Positions 36,396 to 40,001 of a stretch of DNA of 61,096 nt are shown piece after piece (position 1 is the stretch's first letter; each line of letters starts with the position of its first letter). The translations under genes were made by a program, and so were the position numbers. The notes beneath the pieces were generated by a model. That model ran no database searches, was not told the DNA's origin, and worked only from the letters and a program-made list of their open reading frames with translations. The DNA comes from Fidelibacterota bacterium (lineage in GTDB: Bacteria; Fidelibacterota; Marinisomatia; Marinisomatales; TCS55), in the NCBI GenBank assembly GCA_014381755.1, contig JACNLB010000083.1, forward strand, positions 1 to 61,096, in the 5' to 3' direction.

Positions 36396-37607
36396 TTATA
36401 TCAATTTTTCTAAAGCGCTTGCCACCTTCGAAATACCGCGCTTAATTGTTTCTTTGTCAGTGGCACACGAAAATCTTATATGTCCTGGTGCTCCAAAACC
36501 ATCTCCAGGCACCGTAACTACAGCCTCCGAATTTAATATATAATCACTCAGGTCGAAAGAATCCTGAATAACTTTTCCATTGGCTTTTTTACCCATATAT
36601 TCTGAAAAATTCGGGAATGTATAAAAAGCACCGCCCGGTACCGCACAGGACACTCTTGGGATATCATTTAACAGTTTAACCATCAAATCCCTCCGTTCCA
36701 TAAATTGTAAACGCATATCTTCTACGGGCTGTTGATCTCCCGACAGTGCTGCAATACCGGCTCGCTGGCCAATGGAATTAGCGCAGGATGTTGCCTGGCC
36801 TTGAATTTTACTCATGGCCTTAATGATCGTTTTGTCTCCAGCTGCATACCCAATTCGCCAACCCGTCATAGCGTAGGTTTTTGAAAGACTCAAACATGTG
36901 ATTACTCTAGCCCCGATATTTTGGTCACGGTTTAGTTTTTCAGTGCTGACAAATTCTCCATCAAACACGAGACGTTCATAACATTCATCGGAGATCACAG
37001 TCCAATCGTGTTTTACGGCCAGTTTTAGTAATTGAACAAGCGCTTCTGCGCTCCAAAGACCTCCGGTTGGATTTGAAGGTGAATTGACGATCACTCCTTT
37101 TATATCAGGTGTTATCTTATTTTCAAGATCAGCGAAATCTGCTTCAAACTGCTTATCCGGCAGTGTATCTACTAAAATCGGTTCTGCATCTGCAAGACGT
37201 ACAAATTCAGGAAATGATACCCAATATGGAGAAAACACAACTACTTTATCTCCCTTATCAAACAGCACTTGGCAGGCGTTGTATAAACTTTGCTTTTCAC
37301 CATTGGAAACAAGAATTTCAGTTGGTACATAATCCAAGCCATTTTCCCGTTTCAATTTTTCACAAATTGCTTGACGCAGTTCAATCATCCCCGGGCCGGC
37401 AGTATATTTTGTAAAACCGTCATCCATAGCCGTTTTCCCTGCAGCAATGATATGGTCTGGTGTATTGAAATCCGGTTCGCCAACACTGAAGTTAATCACA
37501 TCGATTCCCTGGGATCTCATTTCTGCTGCCTTGGAAGCCATTTCCAAGGTAAAGGAAGGCTTAACCCGCGCAACGCGGGATGCCAGTTTTACAGTTTGGG
37601 ATGTCAC
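36396..37607 (-). CDS. Class I/II PLP aminotransferase (aspartate aminotransferase-like)
   Basis: [41 protein letters not shown]. Confidence 0.95.
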
Positions 37608-38606
37608 TTATAGTTCGTGTTGTTTTTTGTGAAATTCAGGGCTGTTAAATTTGTCATCTTCTGAATTTGGAATTTTCTTCTTGGGTCGTCCGGGTTTTTT
37701 TGGTTTTTTAGCCATTGGTTGTTCTTCCTCTTCAATGTCAAATTCTTCTGAAAGTACTTTTTTAGTACTTTTTTTAGGTTTACGATTTTTAACCTTGTGG
37801 CGTTTTGGTTTTGGAACATCTTCTACAGAAACCCCTTCCAAATCTGATTCAGCCATTGCGTTAGATAGAGATTCTTCTCCATCCTCTGCTTTTCCTTTTA
37901 AGCTTTCTTCATCAAACGAGAATGATTGTGGGTTAAACATACCGTACACTGCTCCATAACCGCGGGTAATTCCATTGCCAATACCCAAATAATTTGGTAA
38001 TAGAAAATTGGTTCTGAATTCACCTGAAAACGCTCCCCAATTACGTTCATCTACCGGTTTGGGGAACATGGATGTGAGGTTCACTTTTGTGAATATTTTT
38101 TCTTGGAGCTCCACTCCCATCTCTCGGGATAAAAAGACAATATTTTGGCCAAGCAAGCGATTCAAAAAACCGATACGTTCCATATTATTCAAAAATCGAT
38201 ATCGGCTTCCTGTTGTTTGATTCAGCGCTACCCACGGCGTCAACAACCGATAGCGAATCAATCGGTCCACAGGCCTAAACTGGTCATCTTTTACGTCAAC
38301 TTCCGTATCAAAGACTTGAAACGTTATATTCCCAAAATCCAAGATATCCAAATGTTTGGCTATCTCAACAATGGGATCTACACCTTCATTTATACCAATC
38401 ATATATACTTGCTCATTCAGTATTTTTATTTGAACACGCGGGTATAAAAACCGGTTTCTATAAGTACCATCCATCATAGGTACTATTTCTAAATCAGGAT
38501 ATTGGCGCATAAATACACCTTTGACCTGATAGGGTGTTTTTCTAACAGGTTTATCAGTTATTACTCGAGCAATAACTGTCCGAATTGGAGGACTGCTATA
38601 TTCCAT
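37608..38606 (-). CDS. Cas6b-like RAMP-fold protein with Lys-rich AT-hook-like tail, not near any CRISPR locus seen
   Basis: FLYPRVQIKILNEQVYMIGINEGVDPI and LLTPWVALNQ match Cas6b N-terminal/middle motifs as remembered; GAFSGEFRTNFLLPNYLGIGNGITRGYGAVYG matches the Cas6 C-terminal Gly-rich loop; tail KPKKPGRPKKK. Confidence 0.72.
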   Translation of the reverse strand: MEYSSPPIRTVIARVITDKPVRKTPYQVKGVFMRQYPDLEIVPMMDGTYRNRFLYPRVQIKILNEQVYMIGINEGVDPIVEIAKHLDILDFGNITFQVFDTEVDVKDDQFRPVDRLIRYRLLTPWVALNQTTGSRYRFLNNMERIGFLNRLLGQNIVFLSREMGVELQEKIFTKVNLTSMFPKPVDERNWGAFSGEFRTNFLLPNYLGIGNGITRGYGAVYGMFNPQSFSFDEESLKGKAEDGEESLSNAMAESDLEGVSVEDVPKPKRHKVKNRKPKKSTKKVLSEEFDIEEEEQPMAKKPKKPGRPKKKIPNSEDDKFNSPEFHKKQHEL

Positions 38607-38668: not shown

Positions 38669-39916
38669 CTATTGGTTCATTGTTTCCATAAATTCTTCAT
38701 TGGATTTGGTACGCTTCATTCGTTCATGCATGAACTGCATTGCCTCAATAACATTCATCTCGTTTAGCAGTTTACGCAAGATCCACATTCGAGCCAGTGT
38801 TTTTTTATCCAACAATAATTCTTCTTTTCTTGTCCCCGAGCGAATAATGTCAAAGGAAGGGTAAATCCTGCGATCGCTTAAACGCCTATCTAACACCAGT
38901 TCCATATTGCCGGTTCCTTTAAACTCTTCAAAAATGACTTCATCCATTCGACTGCCTGTGTCAATTAGGGCTGTAGATACAATGGTAAGACTACCGCTTT
39001 CCTCAGTATTTCGAGCCGCTCCGAAGAATTGCTTTGGCTTTTTCAGCGCATTTGCATCTACTCCTCCGGAAAGAATTTTACCGCTATGAGGAATAACTGC
39101 ATTATGTGCTCGCCCCAAACGCGTTAAGCTATCCAGCAGAATAACGACATCATCGCCATATTCCACCATGCGCCTTGCTTTCTGAAGAACCATGTCAGCT
39201 ACGGCAACGTGGCGTTCAGGCGGTTCATCAAATGTTGAGCTAACCACCTCAGCCTCTACATGACGTTTCATATCTGTCACTTCTTCAGGCCGTTCATCAA
39301 TGAGTAAAATGATTAATTTTACGTTTGAATGATTTTTCAAAATTGAATTAGCAATTTTTTGAAGTAATATTGTTTTACCTGTTTTTGGCTGGGCAACAAT
39401 CAGTCCTCGCTGACCTTTGCCAATAGGTGAGACAAGATCCATTATTCGAGTAGATAAATCTTTTGGATCCGCTTCTAGGTTAAATTTTTCTTCAGGATAA
39501 AGCGGCGTCAGGTTATCAAAAAGAATAGCTTGTTTAACGTGATCCGGACTTTTATCATTGACCGTTTCCATTTTTAATAGTGCATAAAACCGTTCTTTCT
39601 CTTTCGGTTTACGAATCTGTCCATAAATGGAATGACCGGTTCTTAACCCAAATCGTTTGATTTGGGATGGGCTTACGTAAATATCGTCGGGACCGGGTAA
39701 ATAATTAAAGTCTGGACTGCGTAAAAAACCGTATCCTTCTTTTAATACTTCCAGAACACCTTTGGCGTGTAATACACCTTCTTTTTCATTTTGTGTTTCA
39801 AGAATTTTGACAATTAATTCCTGTTTATTCAAACCGGAAAACCCTGGGATTTCCAGCTCATGGGCCTTTTTTGCCAATTCCTTGATGTTTAATGATTGTA
39901 GTTGATTAACATCCAT
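38669..39916 (-). CDS. rho: Transcription termination factor Rho
   Basis: [45 protein letters not shown]-terminal OB/RNA-binding [32 protein letters not shown]. Confidence 0.98.
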
Positions 39917-39974: not shown

Positions 39975-40001
39975 AAATGATGCCCCTGCGGGAGCAGGTG
40001 C
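39975..40001 (-). terminator. Intrinsic terminator between folC and rho
   Basis: Minus strand GCACCTGC-TCCC-GCAGGGGC-ATCATTTTTTAAAA. Confidence 0.78.

Follow-up and report, generated by a model that had tools for sequence, protein, structure and literature searches.

The window, that is, the whole stretch of DNA analyzed (61,096 nucleotides), is contig C103 of a 2.19-Mb genome assembly (G000) that consists of 160 contigs and is 89.4% complete. ORF calling identified a single long open reading frame with an ATG start on the minus strand at 37608..38606, which encodes a protein of 332 amino acids; we gave the label cas6L to this gene and CAS6L to its protein. Directly upstream on the same strand, across a gap of 62 bp, lies rho (38669..39916; Pfam Rho_N, Rho_RNA_bind, and ATP-synt_ab), and the start codon of a class I/II aminotransferase gene (aspC-like; 36396..37607, minus strand) follows right after the stop codon of cas6L. 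The protein is composed of a Cas6b core (residues 1–225; 37932..38606, minus strand) and a charged, mostly disordered C-terminal tail (residues 226–332; 37611..37931, minus strand), and a profile search revealed one cas6L copy only in the genome.

The first-pass annotation had read the first ~225 residues as a Cas6b-type protein, and every motif quoted for that reading was present in this minus-strand frame. Pfam, PADLOC, PDB sequence, and fold all agreed with it. In particular, Cas6b_N matched residues 8–107 (E = 3.7e-11, 43.5 bits against a curated cut-off of 25), and Cas6b_C matched residues 114–220 (E = 4.1e-24, 85.4 bits against 39.4); PADLOC reported Cas6 (1.5e-42) and Cas6b (1.4e-39), and the NCBIfam profiles gave no match. 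The sole meaningful sequence match in the PDB was the Methanococcus maripaludis Cas6b 4z7k (E = 6.6e-28, residues 27–220); a match of the tail to a SET-domain peptide (E = 0.008) was attributed to low complexity and set aside. An AlphaFold (AF2) model built from 73 homologues showed a pLDDT of about 85–97 by block over residues ~11–220, and the top PDB matches of this model in Foldseek were the Cas6b chains (4z7k/4z7l; TM by target 0.80–0.86), with 4z7k as the best, followed by other Cas6 structures and Csf5. Both the profile and the structural matches to Cas6 were strong, and the model, the Foldseek search, and the alignment indicated that CAS6L has the double ferredoxin (RAMP) fold and retains the glycine-rich loop (GIGNGITRGYGA, residues 208–219; 37950..37985, minus strand), including G210, G216, and G218.

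No CRISPR context was found for this gene. Neither a CRISPR-like array nor an Rfam RNA was found in the window, and a CRISPR-repeat-like sequence was rejected as being at chance level. Profile searches of G000 for Cas1, Cas3_HD, DevR/Cas7, and the Cas10 palm gave no match, and the control genomes did give matches. Thus, the earlier observation that neither an array nor another cas gene lies around cas6L held for the window and, as far as Cas1, Cas3, Cas7, and Cas10 are concerned, for the genome, in which no cas locus was found elsewhere. The CRISPR-linked Cas6b copies, on the other hand, sit with Cas8 (TM1802), Cas7, Cas5, Cas3, Cas1, Cas2, and Cas4. In other phyla, which were thinly sampled, Cas6b matches were observed in 8 genomes of about 145; cas genes were present at the loci examined, none of which adjoins rho, and H-x-H was kept in all seven of the readable proteins.

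We compared the active-site region between 50 rho-linked proteins and 16 CRISPR-linked Cas6b proteins, the latter being that of M. maripaludis (Mm), eight from the same phylum, and seven from other phyla. In the alignment, the columns of Mm H38 and Mm H40, which we take to be the two catalytic histidines of the M. maripaludis protein, were occupied by His in 15/16 and 16/16 CRISPR-linked copies, respectively, but in 0/50 rho-linked copies. The column of Mm Y47 was Tyr in 15 of the 16 CRISPR-linked copies and mostly Phe in the rho-linked ones. One CRISPR-linked copy carried N-x-H instead of H-x-H, and no rho-linked copy carried H-x-H. In CAS6L, the segment at which CRISPR Cas6b has H-x-H...Y is degenerate (PMMDGTYRNRFL, residues 43–54; 38445..38480, minus strand), and no histidine is aligned with Mm H38 or H40; thus, the histidines have been lost. 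Residues common to the two groups were Y119, P124, W125, N155, F193, G195, N200, P204, G210, G216, and G218, of which the three glycines were invariant in rho-linked copies and nearly invariant in CRISPR copies; G47, R50, and R57 were near-invariant residues peculiar to the rho-linked copies. Two histidines are located at the active site of M. maripaludis Cas6b (PMC3652601), and, because both were missing from all 50 rho-linked proteins, canonical Cas6-type RNA processing by CAS6L is unlikely as judged from sequence. As cas6L lacks both the catalytic histidines and a cas context, we refer to it as a Cas6b-derived protein and not as a CRISPR Cas6b.

The carriers of cas6L, as determined by a scan of the genome collection, belong to Candidatus Neomarinimicrobiota (Marinimicrobia), for which the sample consisted mostly of fragmentary metagenome assemblies. 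A Cas6b-family match was present in 131 of 245 genomes of this phylum, and cas6L in 127 after exclusion of G021, G023, G209, and G218, whose sole match was CRISPR-linked. A Cas1 match was observed in 12 of the 127 carriers and was lacking in the other 115, as in all six genomes of the genus of the window. When the small-genome family f9 is set aside, 100 of the 106 genomes in the order of the window carry cas6L; because the rho match of the six noncarriers (G079, G080, G099, G109, G136, and G142) was absent, weak and unrelated, or truncated, their lack of cas6L probably reflects assembly gaps. Five genomes (G084, G179, G071, G006, and G007) contain a second, histidine-bearing Cas6b within a cas locus. 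In an unrooted tree, a branch with support of 99/96 separated the CRISPR copies from the rho-linked ones, and the f25 group (L080–L082) comprised the rho-linked copies nearest to CRISPR Cas6b; because of this position and the lack of a root, the rho-linked form probably, but not certainly, arose only once. The deep-branching rho-linked copies of f30/f31 (L074, L076, and L077) and f25 are tailless and show 24–32% identity to CAS6L. Compared with four congeneric genomes, dN/dS was 0.015–0.038 for the core and 0.08–0.14 for the tail, and the identity of the core within the order was comparable with that of aspC and prfA; the core, including the glycine loop and the fold, is under strong purifying selection. 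Further matches were noted: a contig in a Sulfurimonas MAG with a Neomarinimicrobiota-type cas6L (L161, 50% identity) is almost certainly mis-binned; the two complete and divergent rho-cas6L operons on separate contigs of G118 (L058 and L059; 5% contamination) may represent two organisms binned together; and a weak profile match in L243 was rejected as an ABC transporter ATPase.

The position of cas6L was constant. In each of the 113 loci that were placed on one contig, cas6L followed rho immediately and in the same orientation, with a gap of 7–413 bp (median 50 bp) and without a transposed copy, which is the consistent linkage expected of the proposed Rho cofactor. Among the remaining 16 loci, the same order was observed in several of the neighborhoods examined, and the others stop at a contig edge. 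The usual gene order was amiC-murI-folC-rho-cas6L-aspC-rpmE-DUF1385-prfA-prmC-ubiA, in which aspC is the usual but not an invariant neighbor of cas6L; in family f23 (L072, L075, and L078), neither aspC nor prfA is found beside rho, and cas6L still follows rho in this different neighborhood. The first-pass annotation had described an orphan, stand-alone gene, and this description is apt in that the gene lies outside CRISPR, but a gene found phylum-wide and fixed behind rho is not a stray one. The linkage to rho, the missing catalytic histidines, and the charged tail of the last ~105 residues with its conserved end had escaped that annotation. In 24 rho loci of genomes without cas6L, aspC, rpmE, or other genes were found behind rho and no Cas6-like open reading frame was observed, which points to single-gene gain or clean loss rather than the decay of a CRISPR locus. 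The same absence from many rho-bearing lineages indicated that cas6L is not required by Rho as such.

Several other features of this region were recorded. The rho-cas6L gap contained no terminator-like site in the direction of the two genes, and no Rho residues were found to track the presence of cas6L, so that a signal of co-variation was absent. Long open frames that hinted at rho-cas6L fusions in G063, G064, and G005 proved to be separate genes upon ORF calling. In one congeneric genome (L002; G107:C62:17611-18024), the rho-cas6L gap is 413 bp, compared with about 60 bp. A terminator-like hairpin (GCTCCCGCAGGGGCA) followed by T-rich sequence is located in the folC-rho gap (39981-39996, minus strand); since it is conserved in the genus of the window and in genus g5, and no further, rho may be the first gene of a separate transcript, or its expression may be attenuated at this hairpin. 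The Rho proteins of family f9 (L246, L247, and L248, from G046, G049, and G058), a family without cas6L, contain an extra Lys-rich stretch of about 20–30 residues that separates Rho_N from the RNA-binding domain. In cas6L carriers, Rho has no such stretch; families f16 and f18 have neither cas6L nor this stretch.

The tail of CAS6L contains 24 K+R and 21 D+E within 98 residues and was assigned a pLDDT mostly below 50 in the AF2 model, in which its ordered parts were a short strand (residues 257–260) and a terminal helix (residues 323–331). Within the order of the window, the tail ranges from roughly 55 to 130 residues and is rich in acidic and basic residues, with VPKPR and KKVLSEEFDIEE recurring in many members, and it ends in the motif FN(S/T)xx(Y/F)HKKQH, that is, a conserved N-x4-H-x3-H. 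In CAS6L, this end motif is FNSPEFHKKQHEL (residues 320–332; 37611..37649, minus strand; predicted short helix), and in the 73 aligned sequences N321 and H326 were invariant and H330 was nearly so. A search for YHKKQH on other proteins of the genome gave only out-of-context matches. A linker that is charged and variable but ends in a conserved stretch would be typical of a docking peptide. The tail is restricted to part of the phylum, and the other rho-linked classes do not have it; therefore, it cannot be an ancestral docking device.

Taken together, the results indicated that cas6L is a Cas6b exapted out of CRISPR. The suggestion of a domesticated CRISPR RNA-processing or RNA-binding factor was borne out as far as co-option is concerned, given the 115 of 127 carriers without Cas1, the separate true Cas6b in the same genomes, the 99/96 split, and the invariant position behind rho; of the two functions suggested, RNA binding is favored, and canonical RNA processing is disfavored by the loss of the histidines. 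We further proposed, with a probability of about 0.5, that the exapted protein is a noncatalytic RNA-binding partner or regulator that acts with Rho, because an RNA-holding fold has been kept under constraint while catalysis appears to have been lost, cas genes are absent, and the bond to rho is fixed. According to this proposal, a Cas6b would have separated from a CRISPR-Cas system at an early stage of Neomarinimicrobiota evolution and become fixed behind rho; the elements with which Cas6 proteins hold RNA, namely the two-lobed RAMP fold and the glycine-rich loop, have been kept. Made together with Rho, CAS6L would bind RNA without cleaving it; its Cas6 groove may hold nascent or Rho-bound transcripts and may thereby tune the sites of Rho loading or termination, and the charged tail with its conserved end helix might be an arm that docks onto Rho, RNA polymerase, or RNA. 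The partnership with Rho, be it physical or functional, is suggested by gene order, and the binding of RNA, the absence of cleavage, and the role of the tail are likewise putative. A more specific version, which we put forward tentatively and consider somewhat doubtful, is that a single exaptation close to the root of the phylum made Cas6 a dedicated component of Rho termination, and that in one order the histidines of the tail motif may replace the lost ones, in trans or in cis.

Several alternatives were weighed against the role as a noncatalytic Rho factor. CAS6L could be an endoribonuclease with a histidine-free active site, whose substrates would be transcripts of the cell, perhaps the mRNA of the rho operon. 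There is a precedent in Sulfolobus solfataricus Cas6, which cleaves without an active-site histidine by means of lysines and an arginine (PMC3652601); in addition, R50 and R57 are ~90% conserved near the lost site in rho-linked but not in CRISPR copies, and lysines 19, 23, and 29 of CAS6L are nearly invariant within the order of the window. We nevertheless regard this serious alternative as unlikely, since the active-site Tyr has been replaced too, mostly by Phe, and neither the rho leader nor the gap between rho and cas6L showed a conserved RNA element, although the substrate could lie elsewhere. The other serious alternative is that CAS6L is a housekeeping RNA-binding factor unconnected to Rho, acting for example on the ribosome or tRNA, with the linkage surviving from an old insertion through operon inertia. 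The genes folC, rho, aspC, rpmE, DUF1385, prfA, and prmC, among them genes of translation, are conserved together even without cas6L, and thus part of the rho-cas6L linkage could indeed be inertia; we gave this reading a low probability, because in family f23 cas6L stays with rho and not with aspC, rpmE, or prfA, and because adjacency was complete in the 113 placed loci and no copy was transposed. Rho levels are commonly autoregulated, and CAS6L might bind the rho-cas6L-aspC mRNA and set Rho levels by autoregulation of the operon; the tight spacing, with aspC beginning at the cas6L stop, would suit such a role, which is nonetheless improbable in that no conserved motif stood out across the family in the rho leader or intergenic region. 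Finally, that CAS6L is still part of a CRISPR locus missed in an assembly that is 89% complete is highly improbable, for even if Cas1 occurs in 12 carriers, it is lacking in 115 and throughout the genus, and genomes with CRISPR can hold their own histidine-bearing Cas6b inside the cas locus.

The recruitment of Cas proteins to nondefence functions has often been proposed but seldom documented on such a scale: cas6L is a Cas6 without catalytic residues and free of CRISPR that occupies a fixed place across much of an abundant ocean phylum. If the link to Rho is functional, part of the core machinery of transcription has come from CRISPR, and a major uncultivated group of marine bacteria would employ in Rho termination a factor not seen elsewhere. 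The genuine Cas6b and cas6L of the same genomes, together with the sister lineages without cas6L, provide a natural contrast that makes the idea testable. No published description of cas6L was found in the literature covered, which left out most subscription journals.

Among known systems, NusG, Hfq, and YaeO are RNA-binding partners of Rho that modulate Rho-dependent termination; they resemble the mode of working proposed for CAS6L, whose interaction with Rho is putative, but their folds are unrelated to it. The pre-crRNA endoribonuclease Cas6b of type I-B systems (M. maripaludis, 4z7k/4z7l; PF17955 and PF17262) shares with CAS6L the double RAMP fold, TPW, N155, N200, P204, and the glycine-rich loop, whereas CAS6L has no equivalents of H38, H40, and Tyr47, no cas locus, a place beside rho, and a charged C-terminal tail. 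The canonical histidine is missing from both S. solfataricus Cas6 and CAS6L, but the former is CRISPR-linked and cleaves by a network of basic residues, whereas the latter is not CRISPR-linked and its activity is putative. The nearest precedent is the TTV1 nucleocapsid protein TP1, which was derived from Cas4 (PMC4625639) and is, like CAS6L, a Cas nuclease exapted after the loss of catalytic residues; TP1 is a viral structural protein, whereas CAS6L is chromosomal, phylum-wide, and part of an operon.
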